DNA of 45,291 nucleotides from contig NZ_JAABQC010000007.1 of the NCBI RefSeq assembly GCF_011391645.1, forward strand, positions 1 to 45,291, given 5' to 3'. Of this stretch, positions 4,995 to 29,840 are shown piece by piece; the first letter of the stretch is position 1; every line of letters begins with the position of its first letter. The notes below the pieces were generated by a model. That model ran no database searches. It was not told the origin of the DNA and saw only the letters and a program-made list of their open reading frames with translations. Position numbers and translations under genes: made by a program. This stretch comes from Rhodoferax sp. (GTDB taxonomy: Bacteria > Pseudomonadota > Gammaproteobacteria > Burkholderiales > Burkholderiaceae_C).

Positions 4995-7778
4995 ATGAGC
5001 CAATTGACAGATGTGCTGGCGCGCATCTTGCCGTCCAAGCAGGTGATCAGCGACCCGCTGCGGCGGCTCGCCTACGGCACCGATGCCAGTTTTTACCGTC
5101 TCACGCCTGAGGTGGTGGCAGTGGTCGAGTCCGAGCAAGAGGTGCAGGCGCTGCTGCAAACACTCGGCAGGCTGGGCCGCCCGGTGACCTTTCGCGCAGC
5201 GGGCACCAGCCTGTCAGGCCAAGCCGTCACAGACAGTGTGCTGGCGCTGATTGGCGAGGGTTTTGCCACCTGCGAGATTGGTCCGGATGCCGCCACGGTG
5301 CGCGCCGGCCCGGGCATGATTGGCGGCGAGGTGAACTTTCGCCTCAGCCCCCACGGGCGCAAGATTGGACCCGACCCGGCCTCCATCAACGCCAGCAAGA
5401 TCGGCGGCATTGCCGCCAACAACGCCTCCGGCATGTGCTGCGGCACGGCTCAAAACAGCTACCGCACGCTGGCTGGCATGCGCGTGGTGCTGGGCGACGG
5501 CACGCTGCTTGACACCGAAGACCCGTTCAGCGTGGCAAGTTTTCGGCAAAGCCACGCCACCCTGGTGGACGAACTGCAATACCTGGGGGCCAGCACCCGC
5601 GCCAACGAGGCCTTGGCCGCGCGCATTCGCCATAAATACAAAATCAAAAACACCACCGGCTACAGCCTGAATGCGCTGGTGGACTACTGTGACCCGATCG
5701 ACATCCTGGCGCACCTGATGATTGGCTCCGAGGGCACGCTGGGGTTTATCTCGCGCATCACCTACCAGACGGTGGCCGAAGACCCGTTCAAGGCCAGCGC
5801 GCTGGTGTTTTTTCCAGGCATCCAGATCGCCTGCCAGGCGGTCATTGGCCTCAAAACCAAACAAGTCGCGGCGGTCGAACTGCTCGACCGCGCCGCCCTG
5901 CGCTCGGTGCAGGACAAACCTGGTTTGCCACCCATCATGCGCAGCCTGGGCGACGAGGCTGCCGCCCTGCTGATCGAGGTGCGCGCTGAAACGGCGGTGG
6001 CGCTGCAACTGCGCATGGACGCCGCCATGGCCGCTTTGGAAGGCATCGCAACCATTGAGCCACCCACGTTTTCCATTGACCCCGCCACCTGCGACATGTA
6101 CTGGAAAGTGCGCAAGGGCACTTACCCGTCGGTGGGGGCGATGCGCCGCACCGGCACCACGGTGATCATTGAAGACGTGGCATTTCCGCTTGAATCGCTG
6201 GCCAATGCGGTGCTGGATATTCAGGCGCTGATGCGCAAGCACGGCTACACCGAGGGCATCATCTTTGGCCATGCGCTGGAAGGCAATGTGCACTTTGTCT
6301 TCACACAGGACTTCTCCACGCAACTTGAAATTGACCGCTATGCAAGCTTCATGGACGACGTGGCAGAGCTGGTGGTGGACAAATACGACGGCTCGCTCAA
6401 GGCCGAGCATGGCACCGGGCGCAACATGGCGCCGTTTGTCGAGAAGGAATGGGGCACCCAGGCCACCGATTTGATGCGCCGTATCAAGCAACTCTTTGAC
6501 CCGCAAAATTTGCTCAACCCCGGCGTCATCCTGAACGACGACCCGCTAGCGCACCTGAAACACCTGAAGCCCATGCCAGCCGCCGAGGAGATGGTTGACC
6601 GCTGCATCGAGTGTGGTTTTTGCGAGCCGCTGTGCCCGTCGCACCGGCTCACGCTGTCACCGCGCCAGCGCATTGTGAGCTGGCGCGAGCTGTCGCGCCG
6701 CACAGCGGCAGGCGAGAGCGTGGCCGACCTGGAAGCCGACTTTGCCTACTTTGGCCTGGACACCTGCGCCGGGTGTGGACTGTGCTCCACCGCATGCCCG
6801 GTGGGCATTGACACCGGCGCGCTGACCCGGCTGCTGCGCGGGCGCGGCATGGGTTCGGGCTCACGCAAGGTGGGGGAATGGACGGTTGACAACTTTGGCA
6901 AGGTGGCCACCGCCTCACGCCTGGGCATTGGCCTGGGGCAAGTGGCCGCCAGCGTGGTGGGCGACAACTGGCTGGCCAAACTGTCGGGCGGCAAGTGGAA
7001 ACGCGGCATGCCCCAGGCTGGCAAAGCGCCCGCGCCCTACGCTGGCGAGGGTGACCCGGTGGTGTACTTCCCGGCCTGCGGCGGACGCATCTTTGGCGCC
7101 AACAGCGCCGCTGAGCCCACCCTGCCCGAAGTCATCATGGAACTGCTGGTGCGCGCCGGTTACGCACCGATCCTGCCCGAGGGTTTTGACAAACTGTGCT
7201 GTGGCCAGATGCTCGAAAGCAAGGGCATGGCTGAAGAAGCCGACGCCATGAGCGATGCGGTGACACAGGCACTGTTAAAAGCCGCTGACGACGGCCAGGG
7301 CGGCTTCTACCCGGTCATCATGGATGCCAGCACCTGCTCGGTGCGCATGCAGAAGAAACTCGCCGGCAGCGGGCTGGCACTGCTCGACTTTCACGAGTTC
7401 GCCCACGATGCCTTGTTGCCGCGCCTGTACCTCGCCAAAAAACCGGGGCCGATTGCGCTGCACATCAATTGCAGCGTGCGTCGCACCGGATCGGACGCCA
7501 AATTGCGCCGCGTGCTGGCGGCCTGCGTGGAGCAGGTCATCGAGCCCGCCGGCATCACCTGCTGCGGCTTTGGCGGCGACCGCGGCTTTGCCGTGCCAGA
7601 ACTCAATGTGCATGCGCTGCGCAAAGTGCACGACGCCTTGCCAAGCAACTGCTGCGAAGGTGTGTCCACCAACCGCACCTGCGAAATCGGTCTGACCGCC
7701 GAGACCGGCCGCCCCTACCACTCGATCGCCTATCTGCTTGAAGAATGCAGCCGGGTTGACGCAACGACGAGCTGTTAA
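4995..7778 (+). CDS. FAD-linked D-lactate dehydrogenase fused to Fe-S/CCG module
   Basis: A 927-residue membrane-associated dehydrogenase that probably oxidises D-lactate (or a related 2-hydroxyacid) to pyruvate and passes electrons to quinone. The N-terminal half is a GlcD/DLD-type flavoprotein: FAD-binding-4 region at about 40-215 ([27 protein letters not shown]) and oxidase C-domain to about 510 ([17 protein letters not shown]). Two 4Fe-4S motifs follow at about 536 ([12 protein letters not shown]) and 591 ([12 protein letters not shown]). Two CCG heterodisulfide-reductase-type domains close the protein (FPACGG...CCGQ at 690-735, NCSVRRTG...CCGFGGD at 822-860). This combines GlcD- and GlcF-like parts in one chain. 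The ATG has a strong AGGAGA sequence. The lactate permease follows, and a GntR regulator is divergent. Glycolate is the main alternative substrate. Confidence 0.88.
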
Positions 7779-7831
7779 TCCCTTTTTCAAGCCACCGCCT
7801 TTCCATTTTTTACAACAAGGAGACTTTCATC

Positions 7832-7894
7832 ATGCACCACTGGCGCGCCATTCACTTCCATCCACAAACTGCAACTTGCAGGAGGCCCTCATGA
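7832..7894 (+). CDS. possible 20-codon leader peptide before lactate permease
   Basis: A short frame, [20 protein letters not shown], begins at an ATG with a well-placed AAGGAG and ends in a TGA that overlaps the permease ATG (ATGA). Four of its first eleven residues are His or Trp. The overlap would couple permease translation to it. It could also be the remnant of an older permease start. No family is recognised and expression is unproven. Confidence 0.35.
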
Positions 7895-9600
7895 ATCAAA
7901 CTTTGCTTTCTTTGCTGGCCTTTGCACCACTGGTGCTGGCAGCGGTGCTGTTGGTGGGTTTTAACTGGCCGGCCAAACGCGCCATGCCGGCGGTGCTGAT
8001 CCTCAGCGTGGCGATTGCCCTGGGCGCCTGGGGCATGTCGGCCAACCGCGTGATCGCGTCCATCTTGCAGGGCCTGATCCTGACCGGCGCGGTGCTGTGG
8101 ATCATATTTGGTGCCATTTTGCTGCTCAACACCTTGAAGCATTCGGGTGCCATCAAGGCGATTCGCGGTGGCTTTGCCAACATCAGCCCGGATCGCCGGG
8201 TGCAGGTCATCATCGTGGCCTGGCTGTTTGGCTGCTTCATTGAAGGCGCCTCCGGCTTTGGCACACCGGCTGCGGTGGCAGCGCCGTTGCTGGTGGCGCT
8301 GGGCTTTCCGGCCATGGGCGCAGTCATGCTGGGCATGATGGTGCAGTCCACCCCGGTGTCCTTTGGCGCGGTGGGCACGCCCATTGTGGTGGGCGTGACC
8401 GGCGGTCTGGACAAGGCCGGCATCTCGGCCCAGCTGCTGACCAAGGGTTCCGATTGGGAGGTTTTTTACCGGCTGATCACCTCGGAAGTCGCCATCACCC
8501 ATGCGCTGATCGGTTTCATGATTCCGTTGCTGATGTGCGCCATGCTGACGCGCTTTTTTGGCCGCAACAAGTCATGGCGCGAAGGCCTGGCGATTGCCCC
8601 GTTTGCCATCTTTGGGGGTCTGGCCTTTGTGCTGCCTTATGCGGCGGCTGGTGTCTTTTTGGGCCCGGAATTTCCGTCAATCATCGGCGCTCTGGTGGGC
8701 CTGGCGATTGTGGTGCCCGCTGCCAAGATGGGCTTTTTGGTGCCCAAAAAGTCGTGGGACTTTGCTGACCCCAAAGAGTGGTCCCACCTGTGGATGGGCA
8801 GCATCGAGATCAAGCTCGACCAACTCACCGCCAAGGCCCCCATGTCGGTCGGCCTGGCCTGGCTGCCCTACCTGTTGCTGGCTGGCTTGCTGGTGCTGTC
8901 GCGCGTCAACACCGATGTGAAAGCCTTCTTTACGAAAAATCTGGTTCTGAGCTGGAAAAATATCCTGGGCGAAACCGGTTTGTCGGGCAGCATCGAGTTT
9001 CTGTACCTGCCGGGCGGCATCATGATCATGGTGGTGCTGGCCACTTATTTGCTGCAACGCATGAAGTTCTCGGAGCTCAAGGCCGCGGTGAGTGAGTCGT
9101 CACGCACCTTGCTTGGTGCCGGCTTTGTGCTGATGTTCACCATCCCGATGGTGCGTATTCTGATCAACTCGGGCGTCAACATGGCCGACCTGCCCTCCAT
9201 GCCGCGCGCCATGGCCGAACTCGTGGCCAGCAGCGTGGGCAGCATCTATCCGTTCTTTGCACCATCGGTGGGAGCGCTGGGCGCCTTCATCGCCGGCTCA
9301 AACACGGTCTCCAACCTGATGATGGCGCAGTTCCAGTTTGACACCGCCCAGCTTATCGGCGTCTCCGGTGCCATGCTGGTGGCCGTGCAGGCCGTGGGGG
9401 CTGCCGCGGGCAACATGATCGCCATTCACAATGTGGTGGCGGCCTCGGCCACGGTGGGATTGCTTGGGCGCGAGGGCGCGATTCTGCGCATGACCATCAT
9501 CCCGACGCTGTACTACCTTGTCATGGCGGGTGTGCTGACCATGATCGCCATTTATGGCCTCGGCATCACCGACCCGATGATGCTGGCCGCCAAGCTTTGA
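7891..9600 (+). CDS. L-lactate permease, LctP/LldP family
   Basis: A 569-residue polytopic inner-membrane transporter, the usual length for the lactate permease family, which takes up lactate (and often glycolate) with protons. About a dozen or more hydrophobic helices span the protein. Family signatures include [20 protein letters not shown] near residue 110 and the late [20 protein letters not shown] chose the ATG at 7891 because GGAGG lies just upstream and the sequence from [11 protein letters not shown] onward is typical; the frame is open further up, into the dehydrogenase gene. The gap after the dehydrogenase is 112 bp and holds the possible leader peptide. A UspA gene follows after 27 bp. 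Confidence 0.92.
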
Positions 9601-16649: not shown

Positions 16650-19600
16650 TCAGGCTTCGGCTCTGGCCTGCGCCGGGCCCCATACCGGGTTCAGCTGCCA
16701 GTGCTGCATCCAGTTTTGCAGATCCTGCGCCGGCATGGGCCGGGCAATGGCATAACCCTGACCCAGATCACAGCCCATTTGCAGCAGCAAGTTGCCGTGC
16801 GCCACGGTCTCAACCCCTTCGGCGATGACCTTGCGCTTGAACGCTGCAGCCAGACCGATCACCCCCTGCAAAATGGCCAGGTCGTCCGGGTCATCGAGCA
16901 TGTCGCGCACAAAGCTTTGGTCCATCTTGAGCAGACCCACGCGCAAATGCTTGAGGTAGCTCAGCGATGAGTAGCCCGTGCCAAAGTCGTCCAGCGCAAA
17001 CTGAACACCGATCTGGTGACAGTCTTCAATCAATTGCGAAACACCCGCCATGTCATTGAGGGCGCTGGTTTCGAGGATCTCAACCTCCAGTTGCGCCGGA
17101 CGCACCCGCGGGTGTGCCGCCAGCAGTTCCCGCAGACACGCGACAAAATTACCGTGCTGGAGTTGCCGGGCACCCACGTTGACGCTGACATTGAAGCCTT
17201 CCGGCAGGGCCAGGCCGTCGTTCTGCCAGTGCTCGAGCTGGCCCAGGGCCGTGTCGATGACCCACTCGCCCACCGTCACAGCCAGCGCATCCTCTTCAAT
17301 GACCGGCAAAAACAAGGCGGGTGACAGCAAGCCGCGGTCGGGGTGCTGCCAGCGAATCAAGGCCTCAACCCCAATCACGGCTCCGGTGCGCATATTGACT
17401 TTTGGCTGGTAATAAAGCACCAACTCCCGGGCGACCAGGGCTTTGCGGATGCGCTCCACGCTCTCAAAATGGCCCCGCGTGTTGCGGTCCTGCTCGGCAT
17501 CGAAGAAATGAAAACGATTTTTTCCGGAAAGTTTGGCCTGGTACATGGCCTGGTCGGCCTGGCGTAGCAATTGGTCGGCTTCCAGCGAGTCGGTTTGCGG
17601 GTAAAAGGTAACGCCCAGACTGGCCGATGTCTGCAGCATCACGTCGCCCAATTTAACCGGCTCGGCAGCAGCAGACAGCAAACGGTTGAGCATCGGCAAC
17701 GACGCCTGGCTATCGATGAGGTCGATCAGCACCGCCACAAATTCGTCACCACCGATGCGCGCCAGGGTGTCCCCTTCGCGCAACGCGTGCTTCATGCGGC
17801 TGGCGACGTGGGTGATCAGGCGGTCGCCGAGCTCGTGTCCATGGCCGTCGTTGACGCTCTTGAAACCATCCAGATCAAGGTAAACCACCGCCAGTTGCTG
17901 GCTGCGCCGGATGCTTTGGGTCATCGCCTGGTTCAACCGATCTGCCAACAACACCCGATTTGGCAACCCGGTCAGCACGTCGTAGTGGGCCATATGCTGC
18001 AGCGCTTTTTCATGCTCTTTGATGGCGGTGATGTCAGAAAACAGCGCCACATAGTTTTGCACCTGCCCCTGCGCATCGGTAACCGCCGAAATATTGAGCA
18101 TTTCGGCATACACCTCGCCGTTTCGGCGCCGGTTCCAGATTTCACCGTACCACTGACCGTCACGGTCCAAGTCAGACCACATGGTTTGGTAAAACTCCGG
18201 CGTCTGGTGACCTGAACTCAGAACTTGGGGTGTTTGCCCAAGCGCCTGCTCGCGCGAATAACCGGTGATACGGCTGAATGATGCATTGACGTCCACGATG
18301 ATTCCGGCAGCGTCGGTGATCATGATGCCTTCGCGCGCGTGGGTAAAGACATTGGCCGTCAGTTGCAGCCTTTCCTGGGCCTTTCTGCTCTCGGTAATAT
18401 CCTCCGAGATGCCCAGCAGGTATTTCATCCGGCCGTCACCACCGCGGATGCCCACCTTGCGTGTGTGCAGAAAGCGCAACCCTTTGTGGGCGGTCTGGAC
18501 CGGTTCCAGCGGCGTGTCTTGCGCACCCATTTGGCCATCCAGAACCTCCCGGTCTCTGCGTATGAAGCCTTCGGCCTGCCCCGGTGGAAAAAAGTCGAGA
18601 TCGCTCTTGCCAATCAACGCGTTGCGGTCATACCCCAACAACTCTTCGCCGGCACGGTTCAGCACCGCAAAACGCAAGCTGCTGGCATCTTTGAGGAAAA
18701 TCATCAGCGGCGCGTTTTCCACGATGGCCTCGTTCAGCGTCTTGGCCTCCATGAGGGCTTGCTCAGCCCGCTTGCGCTCGCTGATGTCATCCAAAAAGGC
18801 AACCATGCGCCCACCGTCGGCTTCCAGGTAGCTGACATTGACTTCAACGTCAAACACCTTGCCGTCCTTGGTGCGGTGCCGGGTTTCAAAACGGTCCGAG
18901 CCAACGGCCGCAACCTTCTGGAGGTGCGCAAGACTCTGCCCAGCAGACTCCTCAGCCTCAAGCTGGCTGATGCGCATGTTCAATAACTCGGCAACGGTGT
19001 AACCACTCATGCGCGCATAGGCTTGGTTGACCTCAAGTAGCCGCCCCTGCAAGTCAGTCAGCCAAAAGCCGTTGATCGCCGTATGCAGAATGGCGCGATG
19101 CTGCTCCTCGCTTTTGCGCAGTGCTGTCACCGACTGGACTTCGGCATCCTGACTGGCCAACATCTTGCCCAGCAGCAAGGTCAACAGCGGAAAAGCCAGC
19201 ATGATCGGCAAACCCAGGCTTTGAAAGGTCTGCCACCCCAGCGGGGCCGGCAAGGTCACCATCAGCGACAGCTCGGTCACATGCACCAGCCCGCCCATCA
19301 GAAGCAACTGCGGCAAGCGGATGCTTTGCCCGGTTTGGCTCCAGCGCCGGTAAAAATACCATCCCCATGCCGAAGCAGAAATGATGACCAAAACACCCAT
19401 GGTGAGGCCGACACCGCCCAAAGCCACGCGATAGACCAGCGCCAGACCGGCGGCCACACCCGCCGCCAATGGGCCAAAAAACAAGCCGCACAGGCTAAGC
19501 GTGACGGTGCGCGGGTCAAAAATCAGCCCGGGCCCCAAATGCATCGGAACCGCCATATTGATCATGGTGGCTGTGCCAAACAACAGGCCCTGCAAAATTG

Positions 19601-19706
19601 CTTGCCGCGAGACGGATTCCTGGCTGCGCCGGATCAAACCCGAGGTCAGCACCATGGCCACCAGAATGGCCATGCTGTAGGTGAGCTCAAGGGCGGCAGA
19701 CAGCAA
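16650..19706 (-). CDS. membrane 5TM-PAS-PAS-PAS-GGDEF-EAL cyclic-di-GMP enzyme
   Basis: A 1018-residue sensor protein that could make and degrade cyclic di-GMP. The N-terminal 5TM-5TMR_LYT-type domain (about 5-180) is followed by three PAS domains (about 200-315, 325-440, 447-570), the GGDEF domain (about 575-740) and EAL (about 755-1005). The cyclase motif RIGGDEF is intact, and REGD sits five residues before it as an inhibitory I-site. The EAL residues are present too: EALIRW, ILETS, DDFGTGYSSL, KMDQSF, AEGVET and GQGYAIARP. By motif both activities look possible. The start used is a TTG at 19706, with GAGAAG upstream and a stop codon just before; the next ATG is 11 codons inside. The signal sensed is unknown. 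Confidence 0.9.
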   Translation of the reverse strand: MLSAALELTYSMAILVAMVLTSGLIRRSQESVSRQAILQGLLFGTATMINMAVPMHLGPGLIFDPRTVTLSLCGLFFGPLAAGVAAGLALVYRVALGGVGLTMGVLVIISASAWGWYFYRRWSQTGQSIRLPQLLLMGGLVHVTELSLMVTLPAPLGWQTFQSLGLPIMLAFPLLTLLLGKMLASQDAEVQSVTALRKSEEQHRAILHTAINGFWLTDLQGRLLEVNQAYARMSGYTVAELLNMRISQLEAEESAGQSLAHLQKVAAVGSDRFETRHRTKDGKVFDVEVNVSYLEADGGRMVAFLDDISERKRAEQALMEAKTLNEAIVENAPLMIFLKDASSLRFAVLNRAGEELLGYDRNALIGKSDLDFFPPGQAEGFIRRDREVLDGQMGAQDTPLEPVQTAHKGLRFLHTRKVGIRGGDGRMKYLLGISEDITESRKAQERLQLTANVFTHAREGIMITDAAGIIVDVNASFSRITGYSREQALGQTPQVLSSGHQTPEFYQTMWSDLDRDGQWYGEIWNRRRNGEVYAEMLNISAVTDAQGQVQNYVALFSDITAIKEHEKALQHMAHYDVLTGLPNRVLLADRLNQAMTQSIRRSQQLAVVYLDLDGFKSVNDGHGHELGDRLITHVASRMKHALREGDTLARIGGDEFVAVLIDLIDSQASLPMLNRLLSAAAEPVKLGDVMLQTSASLGVTFYPQTDSLEADQLLRQADQAMYQAKLSGKNRFHFFDAEQDRNTRGHFESVERIRKALVARELVLYYQPKVNMRTGAVIGVEALIRWQHPDRGLLSPALFLPVIEEDALAVTVGEWVIDTALGQLEHWQNDGLALPEGFNVSVNVGARQLQHGNFVACLRELLAAHPRVRPAQLEVEILETSALNDMAGVSQLIEDCHQIGVQFALDDFGTGYSSLSYLKHLRVGLLKMDQSFVRDMLDDPDDLAILQGVIGLAAAFKRKVIAEGVETVAHGNLLLQMGCDLGQGYAIARPMPAQDLQNWMQHWQLNPVWGPAQARAEA

Positions 19707-28942: not shown

Positions 28943-29740
28943 TCAGGCAGCCGCTTTGGTTGCCACAATCACCTGAAAATTGTCAAAGAACACGGTGTGA
29001 CGCTCACAGGTGACGCCGGGCATGGCTTGCAGTTGCAGCACCGGGTCATGGGTGTTCCACAGCGCCAGACCATAGGGCTCAAAGACCTTGAAATAGGTCC
29101 AGCTCAAGGCGCGCAGCACCCACGGACGGGGCTTGTGGAATTCCCCCAGGTACAGCTTGCCACCTGGCTCAAGCACCCGCATGGCCTCGTTGAGGGCCTC
29201 CACCTTGAGATGGTGCGGCAACTCATGCAACAGGAAGAACATCACATTGGCCCGCACCGAGGCATCAGCCTGCTGCATGGCCACCGCATTGTCCTGCGTG
29301 TAAACGGTTTTGCCGGCGTGCACGGCCAGCTTGCGCTCGGCATGGTCCAGTTCGTTTTGAATGATGTCAGCCACCAGCACCTTGCTGGCGCCGGCATCGA
29401 CTGCAGCCTGCGCCACACGCGGCATCACGTTGCCAAAGGCGCAGGAGGTAATCAACACCTGCTTGCCCTTTAAATTGTCGCGGCTCAGGCCGCGCACGAT
29501 GATGGACACCAGGTTGCTGTACTGGAACAGCAAAATCGCGGAAATGATGGGCTGCCAGTCGATCAGGCGAATCAGGCGCATGTTGGAATAGATTGGATAC
29601 ACATGCGCCGCGTCGTGCGTGAGCCGCCCGGTGATGCCGCGCACGAGCAAGGCGCCGCGCGTCAAGGTAAAGAAAAACAAGGCGGTGCTGGCAAGCACCA
29701 CGACCACAGAAAGGAAGGTATACGAAAACCAGGCAGGCAT
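28943..29740 (-). CDS. rquA: RquA-like rhodoquinone biosynthesis methyltransferase-family protein
   Basis: A 265-residue protein with an N-terminal membrane segment (about 4-27) and a class I methyltransferase-like domain. RquA converts ubiquinone to rhodoquinone, a low-potential quinone used for fumarate reduction without oxygen. Features that recall RquA are a non-canonical SAM motif I (LITSCAFGNVMPRV in place of ExGxGxG), VADIIQNELDHAERKL, FFLLHELPHHLKVEALNEAMRVLEPGGK, EFHKPRPWVLR and the C-terminal FEPYGLALW. I compared these with remembered family sequence, not an alignment; another divergent methyltransferase is the alternative. The ATG at 29740 opens on the membrane segment. A perfect FNR box and a TGTAAT -10 lie upstream, which fits an anaerobic role. 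Confidence 0.7.
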   Translation of the reverse strand: MPAWFSYTFLSVVVVLASTALFFFTLTRGALLVRGITGRLTHDAAHVYPIYSNMRLIRLIDWQPIISAILLFQYSNLVSIIVRGLSRDNLKGKQVLITSCAFGNVMPRVAQAAVDAGASKVLVADIIQNELDHAERKLAVHAGKTVYTQDNAVAMQQADASVRANVMFFLLHELPHHLKVEALNEAMRVLEPGGKLYLGEFHKPRPWVLRALSWTYFKVFEPYGLALWNTHDPVLQLQAMPGVTCERHTVFFDNFQVIVATKAAA

Positions 29741-29791
29741 TGTGTGCTTTCTATAACGGCTGTGAATAACCCAGGAAGTCAAAAAAACTTC

Positions 29792-29840
29792 AAGTGGCGA
29801 TTACACCCGTCAGGGGAAACCCTGTATTGATGCAGATCAA
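29792..29840 (-). promoter_or_regulatory. FNR-type promoter of the rquA-like gene
   Basis: TTGATGCAGATCAA (29827-29840) is a perfect match to the FNR/Anr consensus TTGATNNNNATCAA. On the minus strand a TGTAAT -10 (29805-29800) follows, predicting a start of transcription near 29792-29793. The box centre (29833.5) then lies at about -41, the position of class II FNR-activated promoters. The leader to the ATG would be about 52 nt. Confidence 0.8.

Follow-up and report, generated by a model that had tools for sequence, protein, structure and literature searches.

An RquA-family paralogue behind a predicted class II FNR promoter in Rhodoferax

The 45,291-nt stretch of Rhodoferax sp. DNA analysed here (the window) encodes a paralogue of RquA, and the conservation of its promoter among related genomes gives good support to control of this gene by FNR from a class II position. 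In our preferred reading, which we hold with about equal measures of belief and doubt, the product would be an FNR-activated, membrane-bound SAM enzyme of the RquA family that modifies a membrane quinone without oxygen. FNR, the oxygen sensor, would bind the class II promoter and activate the gene when oxygen is absent, and the product, held in the membrane, would alter ubiquinone or a close relative by means of SAM, the chemistry probably being an RquA-like, SAM-dependent amino transfer as opposed to a UbiE-like methylation. The regulatory step is proposed because the DNA is conserved, and the chemical step because of family resemblance alone. The paralogue may change a membrane electron carrier once oxygen is gone, and its upstream region offers a defined promoter with which to test whether oxygen controls the quinone pools of Rhodoferax.

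The open frame at 28943-29782 proved to be real, with a conserved start at the ATG at 29740 (Table 1). The exact FNR consensus that the first-pass annotation had reported before this gene was borne out and is the sole exact match in the window. The claim that a TGTAAT -10 element places the box near -41 also held: on the minus strand the box is followed by the spacer, the hexamer and 59 nt leading to the ATG. With TGTAAT set at -12 to -7, the predicted transcription start lies at about 29793, giving a leader of 53 nt, and the 21-nt distance between box and hexamer would put the box centre near -40.5 of that start. Class II FNR promoters carry TTGAT-N4-ATCAA centred near -41.5 of the start site, and the predicted position agrees with this arrangement. 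Within the window, two boxes with at most one mismatch were found against 0.72 expected, a count reached by 18 of 100 shuffles, so the window alone provides little proof. The whole genome (2.74 Mb) contains 15 exact boxes against none for a reversed-pattern control.

Table 1. Coordinates of the paralogue gene and of its predicted promoter elements
Feature	Position	Strand	Description and basis
FNR box	29827..29840	(-)	TTGATGCAGATCAA; minus strand TTGATCTGCATCAA; exact consensus, conserved in orthologues
Spacer, 21 nt, box to -10	29806..29826	(-)	Box-anchored comparison of 20 upstream regions
-10 hexamer TGTAAT	29800..29805	(-)	21-22 nt spacing in 18/20; genus scan
RquA-family paralogue, 265 aa	28943..29740	(-)	Hydrophobic N-terminal helix and class I SAM-methyltransferase fold

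A search for the box before orthologues in related genomes, which had been suggested as a check, was informative. It covered 66 upstream regions, 61 from 60 Rhodoferax genomes and five from other genera of the family, with the duplicates L014 and L015 left out. An exact box was present in 14 regions, a box with at most one mismatch in 20 and one with at most two mismatches in 50; because of the kinship among the regions, these counts cannot be treated as independent. Letter shuffles of the same regions gave 0, 0.15 and 3.8, respectively, and the control of 268 other genes from the same loci gave 0, 1 and 40, which implies a background near 15% for the two-mismatch class. Of the 20 regions with at most one mismatch, 18 had the hexamer T[GCT]TAAT 21-22 nt past the box (background about 0.011), as did 6 of the 30 with two-mismatch boxes, for a total of 24 of 66 regions with the class II layout. 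A GGGTTTnCCC-like stretch within the spacer is also well conserved across the 20 regions compared.

Across 89 Rhodoferax genomes, a scan for an exact box followed after 20-22 nt by TNTAAT returned 16 sites, 13 of them before the paralogue gene, and no control matches. This conservation contradicts the notion that the box is a chance palindrome, as do the concentration of the genus-wide sites before a single gene and the lack of any exact box among the control genes; the ordinary number of near-matches in the window would have agreed with chance, which we nevertheless consider extremely improbable. The class II layout is confined to part of Rhodoferax, and elsewhere in the genus the box is degenerate or absent. 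No box within two mismatches was found in R. antarcticus (L108) or in the similar upstream regions L071, L076-L079 and L106, and other Rhodoferax had two-mismatch boxes with no -10 element at class II spacing. Among 28 further loci (27 picked by eye, outside the 66, from 80 stretches encoding relatives, plus L305), six had an exact box and eight a box with at most one mismatch (shuffles, 0 and 0.22), and none of these eight was accompanied by a -10 element with five of six matches at class II spacing.

A suitable regulator is encoded in the genome of the window. L320 is an Fe-S type FNR (NF008365, 240 bits, cut-off 228) with the N-terminal cysteine motif CSNCNMRELC and an E-T-I-S-R helix, and the E-x-x-S-R helix is the element that reads TTGAT. 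A second FNR-like protein (L322, G000 contig 21) has a similar E-x-x-S-R helix without the N-terminal cysteines. The resemblance of the two helices would permit the box to serve L322 or another member of the CRP/FNR family, with a signal other than oxygen, but a canonical Fe-S FNR is encoded and genes typical of low-oxygen conditions stand close to other exact boxes, making such an assignment unlikely. Fourteen other exact boxes occur in the genome, and the neighbouring gene was scanned for nine of them and not for five. Six of the nine scanned neighbours matched a model (ccoN, pyruvate:ferredoxin oxidoreductase gamma, sdhC, PPK2 and two more), and three had no model match. The two others that matched are a monomeric isocitrate dehydrogenase, cut short by its stretch, and a DmsE-like decaheme cytochrome, the latter a weak match (41.7 bits, cut-off 192). 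At L310 (G000 contig 31), the succinate dehydrogenase cytochrome b gene sdhC has its exact box about 100 nt upstream. L316 (G000 contig 93) contains two exact boxes 2.3 kb apart, the first followed by the gene for the weakly matching DmsE-like decaheme protein and the second by a gene with no NCBIfam match.

The first-pass annotation had called the gene RquA-like; the resemblance stands, but identity with RquA does not. The RquA model NF038261 is the best curated model for the paralogue, at 117.7 bits against a cut-off of 175, and the next model reaches 45.8 bits. Besides fragments, NF038261 matches fall into three bands: the main RquA band (about 269-322 bits), a second RquA band (about 155-225 bits) and the paralogue clade, whose other full-length members score 102.7-123.2 bits. 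The cut-off is an imperfect boundary, since it also excludes those members of the second RquA band that score 155-175 bits. Identity of the protein is 57-92% to its orthologues and 24-33% to 11 RquA proteins.

RquA is marked by Gln at position 3 and Val at position 7 of motif I (PMC7813818, excerpt). Alignment with RquA sequences, which had been suggested as a check, showed that both residues are missing from the paralogue: the clade has Ile/Val97 and Ala101 (177 rows, including near-duplicates), against 98% Gln and 97% Val in 149 main RquA rows and 94% and 100% in 18 second-band rows. The SAM-pocket residue D125 is 100% conserved in the clade and was equated with D118 of R. rubrum RquA, which itself stood outside the alignment. 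Where D143 is presumed to fall, the clade has Asn in 89% and Asp in 10% of rows, and Asn also occupies 77% of the 18 second-band RquA rows. The D118A/D143A double variant of R. rubrum RquA is inactive (PMC9814641, excerpt). Given the NF038261 score and the absence of the motif I Gln and Val, we rejected the identification of the gene as RquA.

Equally, the gene is not UbiE. Curated UbiE/MenG models gave at most 45.8 bits against cut-offs of at least 158, although the paralogue passes the broader Pfam UbiE/COQ5 family (39.5, cut-off 20.1). In a tree of 101 chosen rows, the paralogue clade was single (SH-aLRT 92) and stood opposite both RquA bands (90); the main RquA band alone had a value of 74, and one second-band row (L287) strayed on a long branch. 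The tree includes 14 'UbiE-type' rows, which are low-scoring search matches, not individually annotated, whose AGGTGD motif I we take to be that of UbiE. These rows were distant from the paralogue clade, separated by a very long branch with support of 100, so the clustering with UbiE against which the first-pass annotation had cautioned was not found. AU tests did not reject grouping of the clade with either RquA band (p 0.315, 0.398), and the position 'sister to all RquA' is therefore not established. The paralogue shares with RquA a class I SAM fold, the SAM-pocket Asp and three features that the UbiE-type rows do not have: C-x-[FY]-G in motif I (Cys in 83-88% of RquA), FFLLHExP and E-P...W. 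With UbiE/COQ5 it shares the fold and the SAM-pocket Asp, and differs in the motif I glycines and the FFLLHExP region.

These comparisons also bear on whether the protein could be a methyltransferase of a quinone or of another membrane lipid, its likeness to RquA reflecting shared ancestry only. The Pfam match would agree with such an activity, as would the AlphaFold model, the fold of which matches Coq5, a phospholipid methyltransferase and other SAM methyltransferases. The loss of the UbiE-type motif I glycines, the retention of RquA-type FFLLHExP and the distance to the UbiE-type rows argue against it, and we regard a methyltransferase as improbable. Searches of solved structures returned no RquA or paralogue structure, just other SAM methyltransferases.

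The N-terminus sets the paralogue apart from RquA and is pertinent to the proposed location of the enzyme. A 19-residue hydropathy of at least 1.96 was reached within the first 45 residues of all 66 orthologues, whereas none of 60 RquA N-termini reached 1.6 over the same length. The AlphaFold model (mean pLDDT 77.7, below 50 at residues 43-66) has one long N-terminal helix (residues 3-37) ahead of the SAM-methyltransferase fold. The paralogue is thus probably membrane-anchored.

Most Rhodoferax genomes with the paralogue also contain an rquA over the cut-off. Both genes were present in 50 of 89 genomes, rquA alone in 6, the paralogue alone in 10 and neither in 23, one of the 56 rquA counted being a fragment; the genomes were taken as they stand, with kinship uncorrected. 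For the 44 genomes at least 95% complete, the corresponding numbers were 30, 1, 5 and 8. The occurrence of the paralogue without rquA in 5 of these 44 implies more than an accessory role to rquA. No rquA over the cut-off was found in the genome of the window, which is 93% complete; this may reflect absence or a gap. In a draw of 150 genomes from the family, RquA over the cut-off was found in 11, the paralogue in 7 and both in 4. An order-wide draw of 399 contained the paralogue in the window's own genome and one other, and is thus indicative of an uncommon gene; RquA over the cut-off was found in 35. Relatives were encoded on 270 stretches of a public genome set, of which 80 were kept, including stretches titled as Polaromonas, Ramlibacter, Methylotenera and Oxalobacteraceae. 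Two genomes had two RquA-type genes in one score band, at 322 and 291.5 bits in G807 (L258, L306) and at 180.4 and 166.5 bits in G457 (L291, L292). In an earlier survey of 182 organisms (PMC5953543, excerpt), RquA types A and B were never found together in one organism; our score bands are not equated with these types.

The main rival to our preferred reading is that the paralogue represents a diverged second synthase of rhodoquinone, a genuine isozyme of RquA converting ubiquinone to rhodoquinone when FNR is active. The retained RquA-type motif I (C-x-F-G), SAM-pocket Asp and FFLLHExP would be consistent with this, and so would the AU tests and the genomes in which the paralogue occurs without rquA. 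Nevertheless, both published marker residues are replaced (Gln by Ile/Val, Val by Ala), the NF038261 score is far under the RquA cut-off, and rquA is already present in 50 of the 60 Rhodoferax genomes with the paralogue, so that an isozyme appears rather doubtful. A more specific version of our preferred reading, that a third RquA-family lineage, controlled directly by FNR, makes not rhodoquinone but another quinone (a ubiquinone with a different amino or other substitution), such that two RquA-type enzymes would adjust the quinone pool of Rhodoferax, is offered tentatively, as a somewhat unlikely possibility. A large group of RquA relatives, found alongside rquA and often preceded by an FNR box, suggests an unstudied step in quinone modification, and cautions against reading low-scoring 'RquA' matches as rhodoquinone production. 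Even an annotated rquA need not work, as one such gene gave no rhodoquinone in E. coli (PMC13386864, excerpt). Within the genus, R. ferrireducens has been named as a rhodoquinone producer (PMC6529003, excerpt).

FNR-type boxes also occur upstream of rquA itself, in a different arrangement. In 61 rquA upstream regions of up to 250 bp (52 of the 56 Rhodoferax rquA and nine from other genera), an exact box was found in 11, at most one mismatch in 14 and at most two in 20, against shuffle expectations of 0, 0.3 and 4.4. The boxes with at most one mismatch lie 84 to 214 nt ahead of the assigned start, starts having been assigned automatically (that of L053 plainly wrongly; L013 fell below the score limit for this set), and none of these 14 regions had a -10 element at class II spacing. 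At two annotated loci, L132 (3996-4954) and L005 (2467-3494), rquA is divergent from genes for a small cytochrome c and a NapC/NirT-type cytochrome, and the intervening gap contains an exact FNR-like box; given this arrangement, the box may serve the cytochrome genes. A link between rhodoquinone and a quinol-oxidising cytochrome is possible at these loci.

A parallel in the literature that we consulted concerns other quinone genes. The available text of PMC11707229, which describes RquA as producing bacterial rhodoquinone in a single step, reports an FNR box upstream of ubiTUV, the oxygen-independent ubiquinone pathway, in many species and reads it as a sign of positive control. FNR-controlled ubiTUV and the paralogue are alike as quinone genes behind an FNR box, but ubiTUV is a different gene and the FNR scan reported there was for ubiTUV only; the same text makes no mention of FNR sites before rquA or the paralogue. 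FNR control of either gene likewise appeared in no title or abstract opening among the literature matches listed, subscription journals and supplements lying outside the search. A search for U32/UbiUV proteins in our material returned three U32-family matches, none of which was assigned to UbiU or UbiV.

The genomic surroundings were uninformative about the function of the paralogue. The first-pass annotation had proposed an oxygen-controlled rhodoquinone switch beside lactate and aa3 oxidase modules; as the identification with RquA fails, this switch is not demonstrated. The distance from the paralogue gene is about 19 kb to the lactate genes (4995-9600), about 6 kb to the first of the oxidase assembly genes and about 9.5 kb to the aa3 subunits, and we rejected a functional link to either set, both being ordinary neighbours. 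A synteny comparison, in which 67 of 86 loci had the paralogue assigned to a single cluster and 19 were left unarranged, showed no gene context common across genera; neighbours are shared only in a local arrangement within Rhodoferax and in a few small groups. Elsewhere in the window, positions 16650-19706 of the minus strand encode a large PAS/GGDEF/EAL sensor protein.
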